Positions 2,441 through 19,891 of a stretch of 21,139 nucleotides of DNA are shown piece by piece; positions within the stretch are counted from its first letter, which is position 1, and each line of letters starts with the position of its first letter. Source of the DNA: a virus. Below the pieces are notes generated by a model. That model ran no database searches and was not told where the DNA came from. It saw only the letters and a program-made list of their open reading frames with translations. The stretch is from positions 1-21,139 of IMG/VR virus record IMGVR_UViG_3300027759_002999; one strand, given 5' to 3'. The translations under genes were made by a program, and so were the position numbers.

Positions 2441-4257
2441 CAGCAGTCTCCATAGCTCTTACCCGCACCTGCTTCACAGTTAAGCGGTAGTTCCAGCGCC
2501 CATGCGGGGCGCACACGCATAAACATCTCGATATTCTCCTGTGCAATTTTAGCTTCGTCTTCGTCAACTACGCACGCGATAGCATCGTGCACCGTCATAA
2601 CGACCTTGTACTTCTTGGCTATCAGCAGCATCTGTTCGCCAATGATAATGCGGGCCAGCGCCTGACACAGGTTTTCGATAACCTTGCCGCCGTAGATACG
2701 GTTAGGCACAGTCGTCTTGCCCTTCTTGGTATCGTAGACGTACTCGGACTTACCGTCGTCGTTGTTCTGCTTACGCAGGTTGGGGTATCGCAGGTACAGC
2801 CCGTTAGGTAGGCGTATACCTTTCTCGCCTTCAACTACCAATATCCCACTACGACCAAGCTCCACGGTCTGGTTGTTTATGACCGCGTCCAATGCGGTAC
2901 CAGCTTCGCGCCACAGCTTCGTAATGGCAGGGTAGCTTGTGCGGTAGGTGTCGATGATGCTCTGCGCTTCTTCCTCACTGATCTCAACACCAAACGTCTT
3001 CAGCTGCTTCTTGAACTTGGCGGCACCCATGCCGTAGCCGCATCCAAGGATAGTGGTCTTACCTACGAACCGTTCGTCCTTGGTAACGTCTTCTTCGGCC
3101 TTGTTGTAAATCTTAGACGCCATGATCTTGTACACGTCCTCGCCCTTCTCAAAGGCTTCGACCAAGTCATTTTGCCCCGCTAGCCACGCCAGAGTACGTG
3201 CTTCGATCTGGCTGCTGTCGCTGTCGATTATCGCGTGACCCTCGGGGGCCAGCATGGCATCCTTAAGCGGTGACTTGCGCGGCAGGTTCTGCATATTCAC
3301 CTTGTCGTCGCCTCCCCACCGTCCGGTGTGCGCCGCGTAGTAACGCAGTGGGATGGGCAGCTTGCCCCGCTTAGATATACCAATGAACCGCTCAGTCCTT
3401 GTTTCTTCCAACGTAGACTTCACGCCCAGACGCGCAGCTACCAGTGCTTGTACGGCAGGGTTTTCGTGCTCCAGCAGTGCCTTGAAGTCCTCGTCGGTCT
3501 TGCCAAAGGCCCAAGTCTCCTTGCCCGTGGTCGGGCTGATCTTCACGGGCGGCTCAACGCCCATATTCTGTAGGGCGAGAGCAAACTTCGGGTTGGACAT
3601 AAGTTCTTCTTTGTCGGCCAGCACCTTTTTTAACAAGGCTTCCTTATCGAAGCGTACACAGTCCAAGTGCGCCTTGAGTGCCCCTTCGTGCAGTTCCAGT
3701 ACTGGCTCGCTGAACATCCGTATGGTCAGGTCAATAAGCTTGAACTCGGACACAGGGAAGTCAGGGCCAAGGGTCTGGAACAGCTTGTACGTAAGCTCAG
3801 TGTCGTTCTTGCAGTACGCACCGTAGCGGCGCAGCGCCGCCGCATCGAAGTCCAACCGCTTCTTGCCCAAGGCATTGATGACCTCGTCGCCCTTCTCACC
3901 CAGTTTGTACTGCTTCACCAAGTTAGCAAGGCTGACACTACCCGCACCCAGCGCACGTGCCATAGACAGCGTATCTGCAATGCGCTTGGGCCGGATGTCA
4001 TACACCCACGACAAGATAGCCATATCGAACATGGCGTTGTGGGCTACCGCTATCGCATTGTCCCAGTCAAACCGGTTAAGGAAGTTCTTGGTATCGGCCC
4101 ATGACCCGCTGAACCAAACGGCAGGTGCGTCGTCCACCTTAACTGATACGCCTATCGTCTCGAACTCAGGCGAACGGACGTACTCCTCCGTCGTTATCTT
4201 GGATAACGAGAAGCTCTGGGAGTAGTAGGTTTCGAAGTCTAAGGTGATGATGTTCAT
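2440..4257 (-). CDS. polA: DNA polymerase I-type (family A) with 3'-5' exonuclease, 605 aa
   Basis: The N-terminus is a DEDDy proofreading exonuclease: Exo I LDFETYY (D7, E9), Exo II AHNAMFD (N74, D78), Exo III YCKND (Y148, D152). The polymerase palm and fingers follow: motif A IDSDSSQIEARTLA with catalytic D347, motif B/O-helix RFVGKTTILGCGYG at 396-409, and motif C VMTVHDAI with H557 and D558. No 5'-3' exonuclease domain is present, as is usual in phage enzymes. Two positions are notable. L404 stands at E. coli Pol I position 762, usually Phe or Tyr. A559 replaces the Glu that normally follows the motif C His-Asp. It replicates the phage genome. It lies between a VRR-NUC nuclease (4-bp overlap) and an unknown gene (1-bp overlap). 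Confidence 0.97.
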   Translation of the reverse strand: MNIITLDFETYYSQSFSLSKITTEEYVRSPEFETIGVSVKVDDAPAVWFSGSWADTKNFLNRFDWDNAIAVAHNAMFDMAILSWVYDIRPKRIADTLSMARALGAGSVSLANLVKQYKLGEKGDEVINALGKKRLDFDAAALRRYGAYCKNDTELTYKLFQTLGPDFPVSEFKLIDLTIRMFSEPVLELHEGALKAHLDCVRFDKEALLKKVLADKEELMSNPKFALALQNMGVEPPVKISPTTGKETWAFGKTDEDFKALLEHENPAVQALVAARLGVKSTLEETRTERFIGISKRGKLPIPLRYYAAHTGRWGGDDKVNMQNLPRKSPLKDAMLAPEGHAIIDSDSSQIEARTLAWLAGQNDLVEAFEKGEDVYKIMASKIYNKAEEDVTKDERFVGKTTILGCGYGMGAAKFKKQLKTFGVEISEEEAQSIIDTYRTSYPAITKLWREAGTALDAVINNQTVELGRSGILVVEGEKGIRLPNGLYLRYPNLRKQNNDDGKSEYVYDTKKGKTTVPNRIYGGKVIENLCQALARIIIGEQMLLIAKKYKVVMTVHDAIACVVDEDEAKIAQENIEMFMRVRPAWALELPLNCEAGAGKSYGDC

Positions 4258-4562
4258 GACAGTTCCGTCTTCCGCAGCACGTTCAGCAGCACAGCCACTT
4301 CACCTAGGTTCTTCTCGTTGACCACCAGCTGCATACCGCCCGCCGCCTTGATAGCCGCAAGTTCCCTATCCTGTAGTGCCGTGGTCTTACCCGCGCCAGC
4401 CTTGCATTCAATGGCTAGGAACTTACCTCGGTAGCAGCAGATGATATCAGGGACGCCACTGCGCCCCATGCCGTAGGTAGCAGGGAAGAAGTAGTAGGCA
4501 CCGTGCGACTTAAGTATCTCGACTACCTTGTTCTTTACCTTCTTCTCGGGTGTAGCGGCCAT
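4254..4562 (-). CDS. VRR-NUC domain nuclease, 102 aa
   Basis: This is a single-domain VRR-NUC protein of the PD-(D/E)xK fold. The active-site set is GVPDIICCYRGKFLAIECK: Asp39 of the PD pair, then Glu52-x-Lys54, with a downstream Gln64 in TTALQDRELAAIKAAGG. Related phage proteins act as structure-specific nucleases, for example on Holliday junctions or flaps, so replication or recombination intermediates are the likely substrate. It is the first gene after promoter P1 and overlaps the DNA polymerase by 4 bp, which fits a replication job. Confidence 0.92.
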   Translation of the reverse strand: MAATPEKKVKNKVVEILKSHGAYYFFPATYGMGRSGVPDIICCYRGKFLAIECKAGAGKTTALQDRELAAIKAAGGMQLVVNEKNLGEVAVLLNVLRKTELS

Positions 4563-4585
4563 GTGCTCTCTCGTTTGTTAGCTGG

Positions 4586-4614
4586 TGTATAAGTCTCGTA
4601 CTGGACAAAGTCAA
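4586..4614 (-). promoter_or_regulatory. Promoter P1 (sigma70-like)
   Basis: On the minus strand: TTGACT (4614-4609), 17-bp spacer, TATACA (4591-4586). The predicted start near 4579 leaves a leader of about 17 nt before the VRR-NUC gene. The extended -35 TTGACTTTGTC is shared with P2 and P4. A palindrome copy (4632-4647) lies 17 bp upstream of the -35. Confidence 0.75.
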
Positions 4615-4631
4615 GACTTCTCCACTGGAAA

Positions 4632-4647
4632 CCTGATACGTATCAGG
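4632..4647. repeat. CCTGATACGTATCAGG palindrome, copy 1
   Basis: Exact copy. Flanking AAA and TTT extend the perfect symmetry to 22 bp (4629-4650), the longest of all copies. It contains the stop codon of the ribbon-helix-helix gene and lies just upstream of P1. Confidence 0.95.
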
Positions 4648-4822
4648 TTTTATTTTTCGTGTAGTCAATATCGCCGTAAGCGAAGTCCGTTAGTATCTCC
4701 CGCATACGTTTGGTGTAGCTAGGCGACTGCTTATAGAAGCCAAGCACTACATCTGGTATGCGAAGGTTAACGTGCACCAAGGCAGCGACTTCCCGTTTCT
4801 TTCGGATGCGTTTTTCTTTCAC
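4643..4822 (-). CDS. Ribbon-helix-helix / BrnA-antitoxin-like protein, 59 aa (GTG start)
   Basis: The GTG at 4822 overlaps the upstream stop as GTGA and has GAGGTGA just upstream. After a basic start (KEKRIRKKRE) comes VHVNLRIPDVVLGFYKQ, then SYTKRMREILTDFA. This matches the beta-strand plus two-helix pattern of BrnA-type ribbon-helix-helix proteins, which bind palindromic operators as dimers. No BrnT toxin is seen beside it. Its stop codon lies inside palindrome copy 1, immediately upstream of P1. It is therefore a candidate for the protein that reads the repeated palindrome; this link is inference. It is too short for many gene callers. Confidence 0.7.
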   Translation of the reverse strand: MKEKRIRKKREVAALVHVNLRIPDVVLGFYKQSPSYTKRMREILTDFAYGDIDYTKNKT

Positions 4823-5676
4823 GGCTCACCTCGCACAATAAAGAAGGTGGTGGCGTCAAGCCGATACCCCACGTCCTTCATGAAGTGATTGTCCTCAAGC
4901 AGCTTGAGTAGGCCAATCTTACCCTTGAGGTCGCTTGGTAGCTGTTCACTGGATAGTATGAGCGGGCTCTCGTCCTCTCCCTCCCGCACAAGGTAGTCCC
5001 CGCCGCTAAGTAGAACGAGCGATCCATTGTAGGTGGAGTAAGCCCTAGCAATAGGGAGAGTCGTGTCGTAATCCTCCTTCATCTGCGGGATACTGTTAAT
5101 AGCGCTGGGCTTCGCACCTGCGGCTATTGCAGCAGCACTTACTTCCTCAAGGTTAGCTAGGATATAGTCGTCAAGGTCACGCTTCAGAGCGTGCATCGCC
5201 CCGGCATACGCAGCTTGCTTAGACTGATTACCGCCGTGAAGCTGGCCCGATAGTTTGGCATTGGCTTCGTTAAGTTTCTCGGTGGTTGTTTTCCCACCGA
5301 ACGACTTAGCCATAAGCTTCAGGGCTTTCTTAAGGTCGCCTGTCTCCGCATAGTTGCCACGCTTGCGTGTCTTCTTGATGCGCTCGTTGCCGATAACGTA
5401 CTTGGTACCTTGCCGGGTCTGGGAGGTACTGATGGTCCCGATCTTCTCCCGGTTCTCGTATACGTTAAGCTTCGCTACCTCGTTCCGGTCATCGTAACCT
5501 AGGCTGGGCAGACCCATGAACTTCCATCTCGGGAACTTCTTGGCTGCTTCGTACGCTAGTGGTGCCAGCCTCATACTAAGTGTAACGGGCTTGCTTGGTG
5601 GGGTAGCCTTACTCTTAGCCCACACAAGGTTGGGCAAGCCAAGGTCGATGTAGTCAAAGTCAATATCGTTAAGCAT
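4819..5676 (-). CDS. Hypothetical phage protein, 285 aa
   Basis: Not recognised. The start at 5676 has TAGGAG about 7 nt upstream. The N-terminal third carries basic patches (NERIKKTRKRGNYAETG). The middle is helical and Ala/Lys-rich (ALKLMAKSFGGKTTTEKLNE) and includes KQAAYAGAMHALKRDLDDYI. The C-terminal third is beta-rich (GSLVLLSGGDYLVREGEDES). It may bind nucleic acid, but there is no recognisable motif. It overlaps the downstream BrnA-like gene by 4 bp (GTGA). Confidence 0.75.
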   Translation of the reverse strand: MLNDIDFDYIDLGLPNLVWAKSKATPPSKPVTLSMRLAPLAYEAAKKFPRWKFMGLPSLGYDDRNEVAKLNVYENREKIGTISTSQTRQGTKYVIGNERIKKTRKRGNYAETGDLKKALKLMAKSFGGKTTTEKLNEANAKLSGQLHGGNQSKQAAYAGAMHALKRDLDDYILANLEEVSAAAIAAGAKPSAINSIPQMKEDYDTTLPIARAYSTYNGSLVLLSGGDYLVREGEDESPLILSSEQLPSDLKGKIGLLKLLEDNHFMKDVGYRLDATTFFIVRGEP

Positions 5677-5693
5677 TGTTTGCTCCTAGTTTG

Positions 5694-6062
5694 TTAGAAA
5701 TAATTTATTGACCTGCTAACCGTAAGCAGACAATCCGATCCACCGGATTGTTTTATTTCTATATCTTCGTACTCCTCTCCAAGGCGCACAAACTCCATAG
5801 CTACCTCCACGGCTGCATTTTCTCCGTCAAACAAAGCACAGAAGTCGTTCATTGCTTTTTCTATAGCCTGTACTTCGGGGTAGCTTTCATACCATTTCCA
5901 CCCAGAGAAGCTGAACTCCATTATCTTACGCCCGTTCATTTCACGTTCTTCATAGTCGAAGTCATCCTTTGGAAAGTTCTCGTCTACCCACAGCTTGATA
6001 GCTGCATGATCCTTCTGCTTCAGAGCGTAGAACACGATCTTGCCGTCACTTCGATACCCCAT
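5694..6062 (-). CDS. Hypothetical protein, 122 aa
   Basis: Opens with MGYRSDGKIVFYALKQKDHA, a start seen in several short phage proteins of unknown function. Many Trp, Tyr and Phe residues (FSFSGWKWYESYPEVQAIEK) and an acidic second half suggest a small soluble alpha/beta fold. TAGGAG stands just upstream of the ATG. It sits 17 bp from the next gene and 6 bp from the previous one. This stretch is slightly more AT-rich than its neighbours. Function unknown. Confidence 0.75.
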   Translation of the reverse strand: MGYRSDGKIVFYALKQKDHAAIKLWVDENFPKDDFDYEEREMNGRKIMEFSFSGWKWYESYPEVQAIEKAMNDFCALFDGENAAVEVAMEFVRLGEEYEDIEIKQSGGSDCLLTVSRSINYF

Positions 6063-6068
6063 CTGCTC

Positions 6069-6926
6069 CTACCAATCATACTGCTTGAGGATGGCATCGA
6101 CCTTGCCCTTGATGTCGGCACGTTCAGTGGCGCTCTCCTTGATGGTCTCGATGTCTGCACCGGCCATAGTACGCTCAAGGTCACGACGTGCCTGCTCCAG
6201 CTTGGGATCGCCTGCCACGTTGAGGTGGGTAAGCATCCCGCACAGGGACTGGGCGTTAGTGATAAGCGTGTCGTGGTAGCGCTTCTTGGTCTCCTCATCA
6301 CCGTCCACATCGGTCAGCTTCTCGCTGATGGTGGTCAACGTCTTGTGCAGACGATCCCACGGTTCCTTCATGGCATCGGCCAAGCGGTCCTTGAAGCTAT
6401 CCTCATAGCCACGCTTCACCTCGTCCAGCTCCTGCGCTGGCAGGTCCAGTCGAAAGTCACCGCTCTCAGGCACCGGGCTGAACACCATGCGGAACCCGAA
6501 CTTGCTGCGTACAGTCTCAGCATCGGGGTAGTCCTCGGCATTGAACAGGTTGCCCAAGTAGTTGTGCGCTGTACGTACCAGAGCAGGGTAGTCCTGAATG
6601 AACTGGTCAACCATCTTGTGGAAGGTATCCCTGCGGATGTTGGCCTCGGACTTGTAGTCCAAGAACAAGCTAGTCGGCATCAGCCTTGCACCCTTGTCGG
6701 CCCACGGCAGCGTCTGGGTATTGTGCCAGAGCCTACAGGATGCAGCGTAGTCAGCGATTGCCTTGCGTTGGTGGGTACCGGCCATCAGGTTCTTGCGAAC
6801 TTGAGCGGCATCCTTAACTGCGTATGCGTTGTTAGTCACATTATCGGTGGCACCCTTGTCCAGCTTGTTAGCAGTCCAGACAGAGATGTTCAGTTCAGTC
6901 AGTACGGCAGATGATGTAATGCTCAT
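6069..6926 (-). CDS. MoxR/VWA-associated phage protein (DUF3150-like), 285 aa
   Basis: The start at 6926 (MSITSSAVLTELNISVWTAN) has AAGGAG upstream; the open frame reaches 6968 but without better support. The sequence LNISVWTANKLDK, then HNTQTLPWADKGARLMP, then SGDFRLDL, then EPWDRLHKTLTTISEKLTD resembles a phage family I know to travel with MoxR-type ATPase and VWA genes. The DUF3150 assignment is from memory and tentative. It is mostly helical and soluble, with no catalytic motif. Here it lies in one operon with the AAA+ ATPase and the VWA protein, so it may be a substrate or adaptor of that machine (inference). Confidence 0.75.
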   Translation of the reverse strand: MSITSSAVLTELNISVWTANKLDKGATDNVTNNAYAVKDAAQVRKNLMAGTHQRKAIADYAASCRLWHNTQTLPWADKGARLMPTSLFLDYKSEANIRRDTFHKMVDQFIQDYPALVRTAHNYLGNLFNAEDYPDAETVRSKFGFRMVFSPVPESGDFRLDLPAQELDEVKRGYEDSFKDRLADAMKEPWDRLHKTLTTISEKLTDVDGDEETKKRYHDTLITNAQSLCGMLTHLNVAGDPKLEQARRDLERTMAGADIETIKESATERADIKGKVDAILKQYDW

Positions 6927-6979
6927 TGTGTTGCTCCTTGGTGGTATGGGGTGCGCTGTTACACGCACCCCGGTTGGTC

Positions 6980-7414
6980 CTAACGATGTGCTGCTACGCG
7001 AACGCCCACGACTACCGTGTACTTCTTGCGCTTCTTGCGAAGGTGACGGGTCTTGTCGTTCTTATCCACAGACTGGCTCTGCTTCTTGCCCGTGCTCTTA
7101 GTCGGGGGTGGCGAAGCCACGGTATACACAGAGGGCAGGAACTCACCGCCGCGATCATACGCAATGATCTCAGCACGCATGGCGCTCGGCGTGAAGTACC
7201 GGGTCCAGTTCTGCTCGTTGTGACGGACATAGATACGCGAGAGATGCACGCGCACCTCCTTGGCTTTCCACTCCCGCATACACGCCTTAGCCACGGCGCA
7301 GTTACCCGGTGAATGTTTCCTTGCGGCTTTGATATCAAGCGGCGTTACGTGCAGCTTGAGGGTCTTCTTCGCATTGACAACAGGCAAGCCTTCAATCGTT
7401 GTAATCACAGTCAT
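6980..7414 (-). CDS. Hypothetical protein with basic C-terminal tail, 144 aa
   Basis: Residues 1 to about 100 form a compact domain with AARKHSPGNCAVAKACMREW followed by VRVHLSRIYV. The last 45 residues are a low-complexity Ser/Lys linker ending in HLRKKRKKYTVVV, so nucleic-acid contact is plausible. TAGGAG precedes the ATG. Family not recognised. It belongs to the operon with the AAA+/VWA pair. Confidence 0.7.
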   Translation of the reverse strand: MTVITTIEGLPVVNAKKTLKLHVTPLDIKAARKHSPGNCAVAKACMREWKAKEVRVHLSRIYVRHNEQNWTRYFTPSAMRAEIIAYDRGGEFLPSVYTVASPPPTKSTGKKQSQSVDKNDKTRHLRKKRKKYTVVVGVRVAAHR

Positions 7415-7437
7415 TGTAGTTACTCCTAGTTGGTTGG

Positions 7438-13940: not shown

Positions 13941-13983
13941 AGTTAGTAGTAGGTTATAGCCAAGTAGCTTTAGTATATTAGAG

Positions 13984-14025
13984 CCTAGGTACTTCGTACC
14001 TAGGCGGGCGCGAAAAAATCGCGCC
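13984..14025. terminator. Two stacked hairpins beyond the terminator
   Basis: CCTAGGTAC-TTC-GTACCTAGG (13984-14004) is a 9-bp stem with a 3-nt loop. Next to it GGCGCGA-AAAAA-TCGCGCC (14007-14025) is a 7-bp stem. Neither has its own T-run in the leftward direction. They may back up the main terminator or be part of the origin region. Confidence 0.5.
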
Positions 14026-14037
14026 GGGGCGCGGGCG

Positions 14038-14067
14038 AAAAAAAAGCCCCCCGGTTTCCCGGAGGGC
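14038..14067 (-). terminator. Rho-independent terminator of the 215-aa gene
   Basis: Read leftward, the stem GCCCTCCGG/CCGGGGGGC (one mismatch, loop GAAA) is followed directly by eight T (14045-14038). It lies 34 bp past the stop of the gene ending at 14101. Confidence 0.9.
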
Positions 14068-14075
14068 GAAAATGT

Positions 14076-14095
14076 GGGGCGGCTCGCGCCGCCCC
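14076..14095 (-). terminator. GC hairpin just past the 215-aa gene stop
   Basis: GGGGCGGC-TCGC-GCCGCCCC, an 8-bp perfect stem six bases after the stop codon, followed leftward by ACATTTT. It is a weaker first terminator, or a 3'-end-protecting hairpin, ahead of the main one. Confidence 0.6.
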
Positions 14096-14100
14096 GTTTG

Positions 14101-14757
14101 TTAGGCCGGGATCAGGTTTTTGACAGCGGCCAGATACTTGACCGCCCAAGGACCGGCACCTTCCTTAGATGCCAGCTTGAAGATACGCGCGGCCAGTTCG
14201 GCGCACTTGCCTTCGTCCGTAGCAGCGGCGCTTTCCTTGGAGCTTTCTGCGTTGTCCCGGACTTCCTTTTCCTTGGCTTTCTGGATTTTACCGGCAGGCG
14301 TACGGTAGGCCATCGTCTGGAGAGCTTCGTTCACTTCGTCGGAAATCTCCGGCCCGGTGTATTCGTTAGTTTCCATAAGCGCCAGCACATACTCCGCCGC
14401 ATAATCGCGGGCATATTGCGGGTATTTATCGGCGGAGCTTTCGGACTTACCCGCAGCCAGAACCTTATCCTTAATCCGGGTATTGACCGATTGCAGGTAT
14501 TTCAGGTCGTAACCCGGCGCACCCTTGACCATCCAAAACAGGGAGGGCGCATCCATCGTTGCGCGGATACCGAGGGTCTTGAAAACGCTTTCCTTCTTGG
14601 CTTCCGCCGCATCGGCACCCTTTAGCGCCGGGATGATCGCATCCAACGCTTCATGCATCAGGGGGATGGAAGCCTTGACCTTGCCAGCATCCTGATACGT
14701 ATCAGGAAAACCGGAGACGACGAGGGCAGTAGAGGACTTGAGGGACTTCTTGCTCAT
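14101..14757 (-). CDS. Hypothetical protein, 218 aa, monocistronic
   Basis: The start at 14757 (MSKKSLKSSTALVVSGFPDT) is chosen over 14790 because the upstream part looks like leader; the ribosome site is weak (AGAAAG). The protein is Ala/Lys/Glu-rich and helical, with a conserved-looking block PSLFWMVKGAPGYDLKYLQS and a charged linker (KAKEKEVRDNAESSKESAAA). No family was recognised. It has its own promoter P4 and strong terminators, so it is probably made early and in quantity; it could be a regulator or a replication accessory protein (inference). Codons for about PDTYQD contain an exact copy of the palindrome. Confidence 0.75.
   Translation of the reverse strand: MSKKSLKSSTALVVSGFPDTYQDAGKVKASIPLMHEALDAIIPALKGADAAEAKKESVFKTLGIRATMDAPSLFWMVKGAPGYDLKYLQSVNTRIKDKVLAAGKSESSADKYPQYARDYAAEYVLALMETNEYTGPEISDEVNEALQTMAYRTPAGKIQKAKEKEVRDNAESSKESAAATDEGKCAELAARIFKLASKEGAGPWAVKYLAAVKNLIPA
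14691..14706. repeat. CCTGATACGTATCAGG palindrome, copy 7 (inside a gene)
   Basis: Exact copy within codons 18-23 or so of the 218-aa gene, about 50 bp after its ATG and roughly 100 bp after the P4 start. It is the only exact copy inside a coding frame. Confidence 0.95.
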
Positions 14758-14814
14758 TGGTTTGGTCTTTCTTGTTATGGCCGGGATCATTCATTCCGTC
14801 TCGACCATGTAATA

Positions 14815-14843
14815 AGTATACGCCCAATGTTGGACAAAGTCAA
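14815..14843 (-). promoter_or_regulatory. Promoter P4 (sigma70-like)
   Basis: On the minus strand: TTGACT (14843-14838), 17-bp spacer, TATACT (14820-14815). The extended -35 TTGACTTTGTCCA is the same as in P1. A half-site GTATCAG (14848-14854) and full palindrome copy 8 lie upstream of the -35. Confidence 0.85.
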
Positions 14844-14866
14844 ACGGGTATCAGAGCATGGGCAAA

Positions 14867-14882
14867 CCTGATACGTATCAGG
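14867..14882. repeat. CCTGATACGTATCAGG palindrome, copy 8
   Basis: Exact copy 23 bp upstream of the P4 -35 element, on the side facing the late genes. It is the rightmost copy; none is found in the late region. Confidence 0.95.
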
Positions 14883-15878: not shown

Positions 15879-17413
15879 CCGACCTCCCGGAGTTCCTAGA
15901 CAACATCTCACTTAAAGACATCCCGACTATACTCTCGGCCCTGTCCGTACCAGAGCAGGAGAAGCTCCTAGCTGAGCTGGATCACCTCGAAGCCCTGAAA
16001 AAACAGAAGTTGGCCCAGAAGAAATTCTTGGCCTTCGTGGGCCAAGTCTGGCCGTCATTCATTGGGGGTAGGCACCATGCCCGCATGGCCGATGCCTTTG
16101 AACGGGTGGCTAACGGGACCTGCAAGCGCCTGATAATCAATATGCCGCCCCGCCATACTAAGTCCGAGTTCGCCAGTTACCTGCTGCCAGCTTGGTTCCT
16201 AGGCAAGGAACCGGGCAAGAAGGTCATCCAGACCAGCCACACTGCCGAGTTGGCCGTGGGCTTCGGGCGTAAAGTGCGTAACTTGGTGGACACAGAGGTC
16301 TACCATAAGATTTTCCCTGACTTAGTCCTGCAAGCGGACTCCAAGGCGGCGGGCCGGTGGAACACCAGCAAGGGTGGTGACTACTTCGCCATCGGTGTTG
16401 GGGGTGCGGTGACCGGTAAGGGTGCCGACCTGCTCATAATCGACGACCCGCACAGTGAACAGGAAGCGGCAATCGCGGAAACCAGCCCGGAAGTCTATGA
16501 TAAGGTGTACGAATGGTACACTTCGGGACCCCGGCAGCGACTCCAGCCCGGTGGTGCCATCGTCATAGTGATGACGCGGTGGTCGAAAAGGGATTTAACA
16601 GGGCAAGTCGTCAAGGCGGCGCTCCAACGGGGCGGTGAGGAGTGGGAAGTCATTGAATTTCCTGCCCTTTTGCCCTCCGGTAACCCACTTTGGCCTGAAT
16701 TTTGGTCACTTGAGGAGCTGACGGCCCTTAAAGAAGAGCTACCCAACGCAAAATGGATGGCTCAGTACCAGCAGAACCCCACATCTGAGACTTCGGCCAT
16801 TGTTAAGCGGGACTGGTGGATGATTTGGGAGGACGAGAAGCCCCCCAAGTGTAATTTCACCCTAATGGCGTGGGATACGGCCTTCGAAAAGAGCCAGCGG
16901 GCTGACTATTCGGCCTTGACTACGTGGGGGGTGTTCTACCACCCCGATGCGACGGGCAAGGAGCAGGCAAACATCATCCTGCTGAACGCCTTCAGAGAAC
17001 GCATGGAGTTCCCCCAGCTCAAGCAGGTGGCGGTGGACCAGTACAAGTCGTGGAAGCCCGACAGTATCATCATCGAAAAGAAGGCCAGCGGTGCCCCACT
17101 TATATATGAGATGCGGGCCATGGGCATCCCGGTGCAGGAGTTCACACCGAGTAAGGGTAATGATAAGATCAGCCGACTGAACGCAGTTAGTGACTTATTT
17201 GCTAGTGGTAGGGTATGGTGCCCCAACACCCACTGGGCTGAAGAGGTGGTTAACGAAGTCGCTGAGTTCCCTGCGGGTGAGCACGACGACTATGTTGACT
17301 CTGTCTCCTTGGCCCTGATGCGGTTCCGCAGGGGTGGCTACGTGGGTTCCGATTTGGACGAGAAAGAAGAGCCCAAGATGTTTAAGTCAAACCGGGGTAA
17401 GGGATACTACTAA
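15875..17413 (+). CDS. terL: Terminase large subunit (packaging ATPase-nuclease), 512 aa, apparent CTG start
   Basis: The ATPase has Walker A-like NMPPRHTKSEF and Walker B LLIIDDPHS. The C-terminal RNase H-like nuclease has acidic blocks at LMAWDTAFEKSQRADYSA and EHDDYVDSVSLAL. It cuts and pumps DNA into proheads. The frame holds no ATG or GTG before the conserved FVGQVWPSFIGGRHHARM. The only usual start is TTG at 16010, but 45 in-frame codons before it (LTDLPEFLDNISLKDIPTIL...) look coding and resemble the N-terminal helix of related TerL. CTG at 15875 overlaps the TerS stop as CTGA and has GAGGAAGG upstream, copying the ATGA/GTGA junctions elsewhere. Family certain; start inferred. Confidence 0.95.
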   Translation: MTDLPEFLDNISLKDIPTILSALSVPEQEKLLAELDHLEALKKQKLAQKKFLAFVGQVWPSFIGGRHHARMADAFERVANGTCKRLIINMPPRHTKSEFASYLLPAWFLGKEPGKKVIQTSHTAELAVGFGRKVRNLVDTEVYHKIFPDLVLQADSKAAGRWNTSKGGDYFAIGVGGAVTGKGADLLIIDDPHSEQEAAIAETSPEVYDKVYEWYTSGPRQRLQPGGAIVIVMTRWSKRDLTGQVVKAALQRGGEEWEVIEFPALLPSGNPLWPEFWSLEELTALKEELPNAKWMAQYQQNPTSETSAIVKRDWWMIWEDEKPPKCNFTLMAWDTAFEKSQRADYSALTTWGVFYHPDATGKEQANIILLNAFRERMEFPQLKQVAVDQYKSWKPDSIIIEKKASGAPLIYEMRAMGIPVQEFTPSKGNDKISRLNAVSDLFASGRVWCPNTHWAEEVVNEVAEFPAGEHDDYVDSVSLALMRFRRGGYVGSDLDEKEEPKMFKSNRGKGYY

Positions 17414-19891
17414 ATGGCTATCGACAAGGCACTGAACCAAGCCCCGCTGGGTCTGGCTGGTATTGACCCGGAACAGGACGGACCCGATATCGAAATTGAG
17501 ATCGAAGACCCCGAGAGCGTCAACATCAAGGCCGGGGACATGGAGATCGAACTTGAACCCGGTGATGCGGAAGACGACGAGTTCAACGCTAACCTTGCCG
17601 AGGAGATGGAAGACAAGGAGCTGACTAGCCTTGTCGGGGACCTGATTGGTGAGTTCGACGAAGATATTAGCTCCCGTAAGGACTGGATTCAGACCTACGT
17701 GGACGGCCTAGAGTTGCTTGGTTTGAAGGTCGAAGACCGCACCGAGCCGTGGCCGGGGGCGTGTGGTGTATACCACCCCCTGCTTTCCGAAGCACTGGTC
17801 AAGTTCCAAGCCGAGACCATGATGGGTACGTTCCCCGCCGCTGGTCCGGTCAAGACGCAGATTATCGGCAAGGAGACCACGGAGAAGAAGGAAGCTTCGG
17901 TTCGTGTCGCTGCTGACATGAACTACCAGTTGACCGACGTGATGGAAGAGTACCGCCCTGAACATGAGCGGATGCTGTGGGGCTTGGGTCTCTCGGGTAA
18001 TGCCTTCAAGAAGGTCTACTACGACCCGAACCTTGCTAGGCAGGTTTCTCTCTTCGTCCCGGCTGAAGATGTTGTCGTTCCGTACGGTGCCAGTAATCTC
18101 CAGTCTGCTGAACGTGTCACGCACGTCATGCGCAAGACACCCAATGAACTCAAGAAGCTACAGGCTGCTGGGTTCTACCTTGACGTTGATCTTGGTGATC
18201 CAGTCGATACGTTCGACGAAGTTGAGAAGAAGATCGCGGAGAAGATGGGCTTTAGGGCTTCGTCTGATGACCGCTTCAAGATTCTTGAGATGCACGTTGA
18301 CGTTGACCTGCCCGGGTTCGAGGACAAGGACGACAAGGGCAAGAAGACCGGCATCGCTCTGCCCTACGTCGTTACCATCGAGAAGAACACACAAACCGTC
18401 TTAGCTATTAGAAGGAATTGGCATCCCGATGATGAAGGCAAGCACAAGCGCAATCATTTCGTTCACTACTCATATATTCCGGGTTTTGGCTTCTACGCTT
18501 TTGGCCTTATTCATCTCATTGGCGCTTTTGCTAAGTCTGGCACTAGTATCATTCGTCAGCTTGTTGATGCTGGTACCCTGTCAAACCTTCCGGGTGGTTT
18601 CAAAACTCGCGGGCTTCGTGTCAAAGGAGACGACACGCCTATTGCACCGGCTGAGTTCCGGGACGTAGACGTTTCGTCTGGTACGATCAAAGACAACATC
18701 ATGACGCTCCCGTACAAGGAGCCGTCTCAGGTCTTGTACACGCTGCTTGGTACCATCGTCGAAGAAGGTCGTCGCTTCGCTGGCGCTGCTGATTTGCAGG
18801 TTAGCGACATGTCTGCCAACAGCCCGGTGGGTACGACGTTGGCTATTTTGGAGCGGACTCTTAAGGTGATGTCGGCTGTTCAGGCCCGCATTCACTACGC
18901 CATGAAGCAGGAGTTCATCCTGCTGCGGGACATTATCCGCGACTACACCCCCGAGTCCTACGACTACGAACCCGAGGATGGCACGCCCCGGGCTAAGAAA
19001 AGTGACTACGATCTCGTCACTGTAATCCCGGTGTCCGACCCCAACGCCGCCACCATGGCGCAGAAGGTTGTGCAGTATCAGGCGGTGATGCAGTTGGCGC
19101 AGGGTGCGCCGCAGCTGTACGACTTGCCCTACCTGCACCGGGAGATGCTTGAAGTCTTGGGCATTCAGAATGCTTCCAAGCTGGTTCCGCTGGATGACGA
19201 CCAGAAGCCGCGTGACCCCGTCAGTGAGAACATGTCGGTCCTGAAGGGCAAACCCCTCAAGGCGTTCATTTATCAGGACCACAAGGCCCATATTACGGTC
19301 CACCAGACCATGATGCAGGACCCCCACGTCGCGCAGCTTATCGGGCAGAACCCGCAGGCGCAGGCAATGATGGCGGCTCTTCAGGCGCATATCTCGGAAC
19401 ATCTGGCGTTTGAGTACCGTCAGCAGATCGAAGAGCAGGCTGGTGTCCCGTACCCGGCACCTGACGCTGAGATGGATGAGCAGACAGAGGTCCAGATTTC
19501 TCGTCTGGCTGCTGCCGCCGCACAGCAACTGCTTCAGAAGAACCAAGCCGAAGCCGCGCAGCAGAAGGCGCAGCAGATGCAGCAGGACCCGCTTGTCCAG
19601 ATGCAGCAGAAGGAACTTGAGATCAAGGCGCACGAGACCGAGATCAAGCGCCAGAAGCTGCTTGTTGATGGCGCAACTGCCAAGGACAAACTGGACATTG
19701 AACGCGAACGTCTCGCCGTTCAGGAACGAATCGCTGGCATGAATGTCGGTGCAAAGATCGCCACGGATAAGGCCAACCTGTCTGCCAAACAGCAGGAAGC
19801 CAAGCTCCGTATAGGCGTCGATATCGCTAGGGAGATGGCTCAGGAAGCCCGAACCACGGCGCAAGGAAGTAAACCAGAGGAGACTGAATGA
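17414..19891 (+). CDS. Portal protein, 825 aa
   Basis: It starts immediately after the large terminase stop. A long acidic N-terminus (DIEIEIEDPESVNI, about 25-65) precedes the portal core, with RKDWIQTYVDGLELLGLKVE and TEPWPGACGVYHPLLSEALV, as in large podovirus (P22-like or related) portals. The last 150 residues are a Gln/Ala-rich coiled coil (QQLLQKNQAEAAQQKAQQMQ), likely the barrel or crown inside the capsid. Twelve copies form the ring through which DNA enters. Between about 18030 and 18870 the codons shift to T-ending third positions, unlike the C/G-ending flanks, which suggests mosaic exchange. Confidence 0.93.
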   Translation: MAIDKALNQAPLGLAGIDPEQDGPDIEIEIEDPESVNIKAGDMEIELEPGDAEDDEFNANLAEEMEDKELTSLVGDLIGEFDEDISSRKDWIQTYVDGLELLGLKVEDRTEPWPGACGVYHPLLSEALVKFQAETMMGTFPAAGPVKTQIIGKETTEKKEASVRVAADMNYQLTDVMEEYRPEHERMLWGLGLSGNAFKKVYYDPNLARQVSLFVPAEDVVVPYGASNLQSAERVTHVMRKTPNELKKLQAAGFYLDVDLGDPVDTFDEVEKKIAEKMGFRASSDDRFKILEMHVDVDLPGFEDKDDKGKKTGIALPYVVTIEKNTQTVLAIRRNWHPDDEGKHKRNHFVHYSYIPGFGFYAFGLIHLIGAFAKSGTSIIRQLVDAGTLSNLPGGFKTRGLRVKGDDTPIAPAEFRDVDVSSGTIKDNIMTLPYKEPSQVLYTLLGTIVEEGRRFAGAADLQVSDMSANSPVGTTLAILERTLKVMSAVQARIHYAMKQEFILLRDIIRDYTPESYDYEPEDGTPRAKKSDYDLVTVIPVSDPNAATMAQKVVQYQAVMQLAQGAPQLYDLPYLHREMLEVLGIQNASKLVPLDDDQKPRDPVSENMSVLKGKPLKAFIYQDHKAHITVHQTMMQDPHVAQLIGQNPQAQAMMAALQAHISEHLAFEYRQQIEEQAGVPYPAPDAEMDEQTEVQISRLAAAAAQQLLQKNQAEAAQQKAQQMQQDPLVQMQQKELEIKAHETEIKRQKLLVDGATAKDKLDIERERLAVQERIAGMNVGAKIATDKANLSAKQQEAKLRIGVDIAREMAQEARTTAQGSKPEETE

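Follow-up and report, generated by a model that had tools for sequence, protein, structure and literature searches.

Introduction

By analogy, the nearest known system to the one described here is that of the L5-type (Cluster A) mycobacteriophage stoperators, in which more than 20 short repressor sites are spread genome-wide over promoters and short intergenic gaps, and in which repressors and their sites have co-diverged into heteroimmune groups (PMC6550527, PMC9283540). A palindromic set of operators that serves several promoters from varying distances is found in plasmid RK2, where the sites belong to KorB (PMC11790492), a ParB-type CTPase clamp. The p4-type regulator of phi29 is an early product of a lytic phage that binds inverted repeats by the divergent early and late promoters, and in lambdoid phages regulator and sites are exchanged together between related phages, both in CI/Cro immunity and in N/boxB.

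Here we analyse the palindrome CCTGATACGTATCAGG in a virus sequence (IMG/VR record IMGVR_UViG_3300027759_002999, positions 1 to 21,139), the whole 21,139-nucleotide stretch being referred to as the window. This locus resembles the L5-type system in its many short near-identical sites in gaps and promoters and in the co-divergence of site and presumed repressor. However, L5 sites are 13 bp long, asymmetric, oriented with transcription, bound by a monomer and carried by temperate phages, while the sites studied here are palindromic, have an unoriented centre, occur also within genes and are confined to the early operon, in phages where no integrase or resolvase was found and whose regulator families have no match in Pfam or PHROGs. 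The KorB likeness is limited as well, as no ParB_N domain was found in 16 relatives and the candidates are small proteins without a match to any family. Unlike phi29, with few sites at one promoter region, 8–20 sites are found here through the whole early operon; and while the lambdoid sites are few and adjoin the regulator gene, those that change in concert here are many and extend over about 10 kb.

Results

Seven exact copies of CCTGATACGTATCAGG are present in the window (starting at 4632, 8948, 10129, 13295, 13810, 14691 and 14867), and an eighth, at 11071, carries one outer change and reads TCTGATACGTATCAGG on the plus strand; no further copy was found in the window at up to three mismatches. 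In 100 dinucleotide shuffles the mean number of matches was 0.03, against the 8 observed, and none of the shuffles reached 8. The copies are all confined to 4632–14882, which corresponds to the leftward early operon and its upstream edge, and none is found in the late genes (terminase, 16010–17413; portal, 17414–19891). A preliminary description of the window had claimed seven exact copies and one with an outer change, in excess of chance, all within 4.6–14.9 kb and absent from the late region, and these claims held in our window scan and shuffles. It had to be corrected as to the early genes, which are on the minus strand, and could be made more precise on two points: the 14691 copy falls in the opening codons of the first early gene (FPDTYQD), and the 4632 copy contains the stop codon (4643–4645) of a 59-aa gene. 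The features are listed below; operator copies are putative and given without strand, and promoters are predicted.

4632–4647: operator copy, holding the stop codon of gene 4643–4822, 17 bp upstream of the -35 of promoter 4614–4586 (minus)
8948–8963: operator copy, VWA gene leader, immediately before the ribosome-binding site
10129–10144: operator copy, ATPase gene leader, centre at about +43 of promoter 10215–10187 (minus)
11071–11086: operator copy with one outer change, leader of gene 10229–11041
13295–13310: operator copy, leader of gene 13113–13274, centre at about +49 of promoter 13387–13359 (minus)
13810–13825: operator copy, long non-coding stretch, adjoining short tandem repeats
14691–14706: operator copy, within the first codons of the presumed regulator gene
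14867–14882: operator copy, upstream of the presumed regulator promoter, centre at about -66
14101–14757, minus: presumed regulator gene, first early gene (fam68, 218 aa, no known family; assigned by position and linkage, no DNA-binding test)
14815–14843, minus: sigma-70-like promoter of the presumed regulator, TTGACT-17-TATACT
13359–13387, minus: sigma-70-like early promoter
10187–10215, minus: sigma-70-like early promoter, identical in contig L021
4586–4614, minus: sigma-70-like promoter, TTGACT-17-TATACA
7905–7917, plus: CTAACAATGTTAG in the VWA gene, probable remnant of an N1-class operator
9041–10108, minus: ATPase gene, early operon (phrog_1297)
7688–8926, minus: DUF2201/VWA gene, early operon (PF13203, PF09967)

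Two sites flank the predicted start of the presumed regulator's promoter, one about 66 bp before it and the other, inside the gene, about 110 bp past it, which suggests autoregulation. The other sites are found +43 and +49 past promoters, about -61 before one, in leaders and at gene junctions. When sites from the window and its relatives were tallied using simple ORF calls and a relaxed 10-bp pattern, 32 were at start codons, 53 in leaders, 66 in genes and 41 in other gaps.

Some further features of the region are worth recording. The VWA protein of the ATPase and DUF2201/VWA gene pair (7688–10108, minus) has distant (~31%) relatives in Vibrio, Klebsiella and other phages. Another inverted repeat, TGTGACACGTCACA, occupies an equivalent leader position at 12705–12718 (minus), before GGAGCAAACCAATG. 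Beside the 13810 site, short tandem repeats (GTCCTGTCGCTCC, 3.5 copies, and CTGATAGTTC, 3 copies) cover 13825–13925 in a long stretch without clear genes, which could conceivably be an origin or a regulatory region.

The preliminary description had proposed searching for the 16-mer in related phages, and in IMG/VR (2.9 million contigs) it was found in 14 stretches and was more than sporadic only in close relatives. Multiple exact copies occurred elsewhere only in the near-identical contig 3300009183_000420; the relatives L009, L015 and L017/L023 had one exact copy each, L009 adding a second 14-bp core, and the other contigs had single copies, at about chance level. About 150 related uncultured phage contigs, though, have their own scattered palindrome of 13–16 bp in the same early region. 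When 80 IMG/VR loci with the VWA gene were taken and repeated palindromes were sought without presupposing a sequence, nearly all had one of their own. The main forms are CTAACA-N1-TGTTAG and CTAACA-N2-TGTTAG, with a maximum of 19 copies per contig, and smaller groups use CTGACA-N2-TGTCAG, CTCACA-N1-TGTGAG or CTAACA-N3-TGTTAG; the window form, CTGATA-N2-TATCAG, matches the common frame CTNAYA-N-TRTNAG. In five of the six contigs of at least ~60 kb, 12–15 sites lie inside 9–12 kb, and in the remaining one 8 lie inside 3.8 kb, so that the cluster takes up 6–20% of the contig, in the early region with the first gene, the ATPase and the VWA gene. The window palindrome is most plausibly one allele of a system shared across this large family of uncultured phages from lakes and seas. 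As carriers of the same system we considered the isolates whose terminase is closest (DSL-LC04, 023Pt_psg01 and HTVC027P), and rejected them, since they lack such a set of palindromes and their early region is different.

The first early gene varies among these phages, encoding proteins of family fam38 (~165–190 aa), fam87 (~170–180 aa) or fam68 (218 aa). Regulator loci were collected from IMG/VR by protein alone (54 fam38, 64 fam87), and the numbers of N1 and N2 copies were 492 and 0 in the fam38 loci and 42 and 492 in the fam87 loci. Counts of TAACA-N-TGTTA with spacers of 0, 1, 2, 3, 4 and 5 bp were 0, 492, 0, 1, 1 and 0 in the former and 1, 42, 492, 10, 2 and 0 in the latter. N1 copies outnumbered N2 copies in 54/54 fam38 loci, and N2 outnumbered N1 in 59/64 fam87 loci but not in the other 5. 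The Fisher p of 6e-28 for spacing against family is only descriptive because the loci are not independent, as some contigs repeat the first set or one another. On a VWA tree of 52 phages, regulator family changes seven times (at least five on supported branches) and operator class seven times; among independent pairs the two moved together 4–5 times and oppositely never, although the sign test (p 0.06–0.125) is weak because only 5 pairs are on supported branches. It is likely, in our opinion, that operator class and regulator family have switched together repeatedly, at least five times on this backbone tree. As exceptions, L082 and L204/L079 hold both N1 and N2 sets with one known regulator, and they may possibly have a second one. 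The putative sites representing the fam68 (window), fam38 (L021) and fam87 (L030) regulators are CCTGATACGTATCAGG, CTAACATTGTTAG and CTAACAAATGTTAG, respectively. The spacing rule is established for fam38 and fam87 only.

Early promoters (L145–L262) of both regulator classes share a strong spacer consensus, TTGACN-N4-ATAACTTTGTGGTATAAT, that resembles half an operator. The promoter spacer TAACATTGT of N1 phages was considered as an operator and rejected, being a promoter consensus common to both classes and not class-matched. It was also noted that L026 has two copies of a fam38 regulator (4237–4752 and 5436–5927).

A natural swap is provided by L021, which is 82–97% identical to the window across large parts and has a nearly identical 59-aa protein, but differs in its regulator, a fam38 protein, and has ten CTAACA-N1 sites; in its leaders, CTAACA sites occupy the positions that the window sites do. 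The promoter before the ATPase gene is base-for-base identical in the two, and similar but not identical in a third contig, L022, yet the palindrome about 43 bp past its predicted start is CCTGATACGTATCAGG in the window, GACCTAACAATGTTAGGTC in L021 and ACCGTGGGAATTCCCACGGT in L022. The same three alleles are seen at the site before the VWA gene, and the window and L021 alleles at the site after gene 4643–4822. In L022, a close kin of the window, the third operator allele is found twice as GTGGGAATTCCCAC (85–104 and 1197–1214); the regulator gene is absent from this contig.

Operator sites are also found within codons. The in-gene ATPase site, CTAACATTGTTAG, which codes for SNIVR, is exact in 28/28 phages of the N1 class and in 3/23 of the N2 class, many of which encode SNIVR with different codons, and the in-gene VWA site is exact in 28/34 N1-class phages and 0/30 N2-class phages (Fisher p ~1e-11 and ~1e-12, respectively, descriptive only). 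Among synonymous codons, selection retains those that fit the operator only in phages with the corresponding regulator. Although of the CTGATA class, the window retains one CTAACAATGTTAG at the position of the VWA site (7905–7917), probably a leftover of the N1 operator class.

The fam38 and fam87 proteins are homologous (hhalign E 1e-14), while fam68 has no detectable sequence relation to either; a kinship that had been suggested by eye was unsupported by sequence comparison. None of the three families has a match in Pfam or PHROGs. The fam38 model is all-helical, and its helices 55–73 and 79–95 are linked by a short turn, as in a helix-turn-helix (pLDDT 75), but a PDB fold search with this model gave no match (best E 1.3); the fam68 model was unusable (pLDDT 47). 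Only the window, L009 and L015 are known to carry fam68, as three members of one lineage, and all three contigs have a window-type site at the regulator promoter and in the 5' codons of the gene, with one change in the codons of L015. Because fam68 has only three members, no relation to fam38/87 and no usable model, its role rests on position and linkage. We nonetheless regard gene 14101–14757 (minus) as the likely regulator of the window, an assignment made by position, by linkage in three contigs and by the L021 swap, without binding data. If this is true, CTGATACGTATCAG sites would be expected in every fam68 phage.

The first candidate for a specificity factor had been the 59-aa protein (4643–4822), which is conserved in ~70 relatives and ends in a site. 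It was rejected because it is the same in L021 save for its C-terminus, though L021 uses CTAACA sites. We read this minus-strand gene product as ribbon-helix-helix-like, with no Pfam match above cut-off.

Discussion

The distribution of the palindromes, their family-wide occurrence, their regulator-dependent spacing, their co-switching and selection for class-matched sites within codons are shown here. In our preferred reading, to which we assign a probability of about 0.66, the palindromes serve a self-regulated early repressor, encoded by the phage, as operators in double-stranded DNA; binding, repression over activation and the identity of the fam68 protein as the regulator of the window are inferred. 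A dimer of the first-early-gene product (14101–14757, minus) would bind the palindromes. Expressed early, from a promoter flanked by two copies, the regulator would accumulate and occupy sites at promoters and gene junctions as well as those within leaders and genes; once bound it would shut off its own and other early transcription by blocking both initiation and elongation. In a phage that shows no sign of lysogeny, this would produce negative feedback and a switch from early to late expression. This comparative evidence (regulator-linked spacing, co-switching and class-matched in-gene codons) lends good support, in the absence of binding data, to the preliminary description's reading of an operator set of a phage-specific regulon. 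Its remark that no described phage operator has the sequence CCTGATACGTATCAGG also held within the literature searched, where no paper was found giving these motifs as phage sites.

Repression and activation are not separable from sequence. In an activator version of the model, the same first-gene product would bind the same sites but mainly activate later transcription or replace promoters. Two sites about 61 and 66 bp before predicted starts, where class I activators act, are in its favour. Most sites, however, are downstream of promoters, at junctions or in genes, with no obvious mechanism of activation there, and the late region has no sites. This version appears unlikely to us, and the promoter-distant sites fit an elongation roadblock better than activation, as inferred from sequence alone.

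Alternatively, the palindromes might fold in the transcript as leader RNA hairpins acting through an RNA-binding protein, stability, translation or antitermination. Many copies are indeed just upstream of ribosome-binding sites or across start codons, the 16-mer could fold into a 6-bp stem with an ACGU loop, and the N2 centre favours AA over TT on the gene strand (112:32, outside detected start codons), although this bias might be owed to undetected start codons, which remains unproven. Against it, the N1 centre on the gene strand is A in 82, T in 101 and G/C in 10 cases outside start codons, a balance predicted by a DNA dyad and not by an RNA loop. Among 43 internal mismatches drawn from 156 one-mismatch copies, none gives G-U on the mRNA strand, and two do on the other strand. 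In addition, flanking bases pair no more than composition predicts, there is no Rfam match, and some copies are upstream of promoters or inside genes. The shared mRNA leader hairpin, offered as an alternative in the preliminary description, is thus disfavoured, and we consider it improbable.

It is very unlikely that these are centromere-like or genome-organising sites that serve ParB, KorB, or some replication or packaging protein without acting directly on transcription: many palindromes are in one region, some in genes and far from promoters, but ParB_N (PF02195) is lacking in 16/16 relatives, and within the early operon the positions track the starts of genes, their leaders and the junctions between them. 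Sites for a host CRP/FNR-type regulator are equally hard to sustain. CTGAT-N4-ATCAG is similar to the FNR box, and CTAACA-N2-TGTTAG to the PrfA box, a string also met in our literature search; however, N1 spacing is 1 bp shorter and breaks that geometry, the class of site goes with the first gene that the phage itself carries, and a different class is used by L021, which is closely related and presumably has a similar host.

As to lifestyle, no tyrosine or serine integrase or resolvase was found in 16 relatives of 47–66 kb, the window's own incomplete genome not being included, and a search of 84,980 bacterial and archaeal species turned up no fam38 or fam87 regulator. For these reasons lysogeny is unlikely. 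A bolder reading, against which the odds still lean slightly, would make these proteins phage regulators of a new class, found in freshwater and marine phages that are apparently lytic. In it, a family of helical proteins whose ancestry is unknown, and which an unrelated family can replace, would use 8–20 palindromes as roadblocks through start codons, leaders and genes of the early operon; entire regulons would repeatedly change specificity by regulator replacement and operator rewriting, with conflict among lytic phages that infect the same cell as a possible driver.

Roadblock operators distributed in this way have been described chiefly in temperate mycobacteriophages, in which they contribute to immunity. 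If they are truly present in apparently lytic phages, this design would serve the timing of expression or competition between phages, without lysogeny. The repeated co-replacement of a regulator and at least ten operators makes a change in the specificity of a whole regulon testable, and the new regulator families provide matched protein-operator pairs whose half-site spacing is 1 bp apart.
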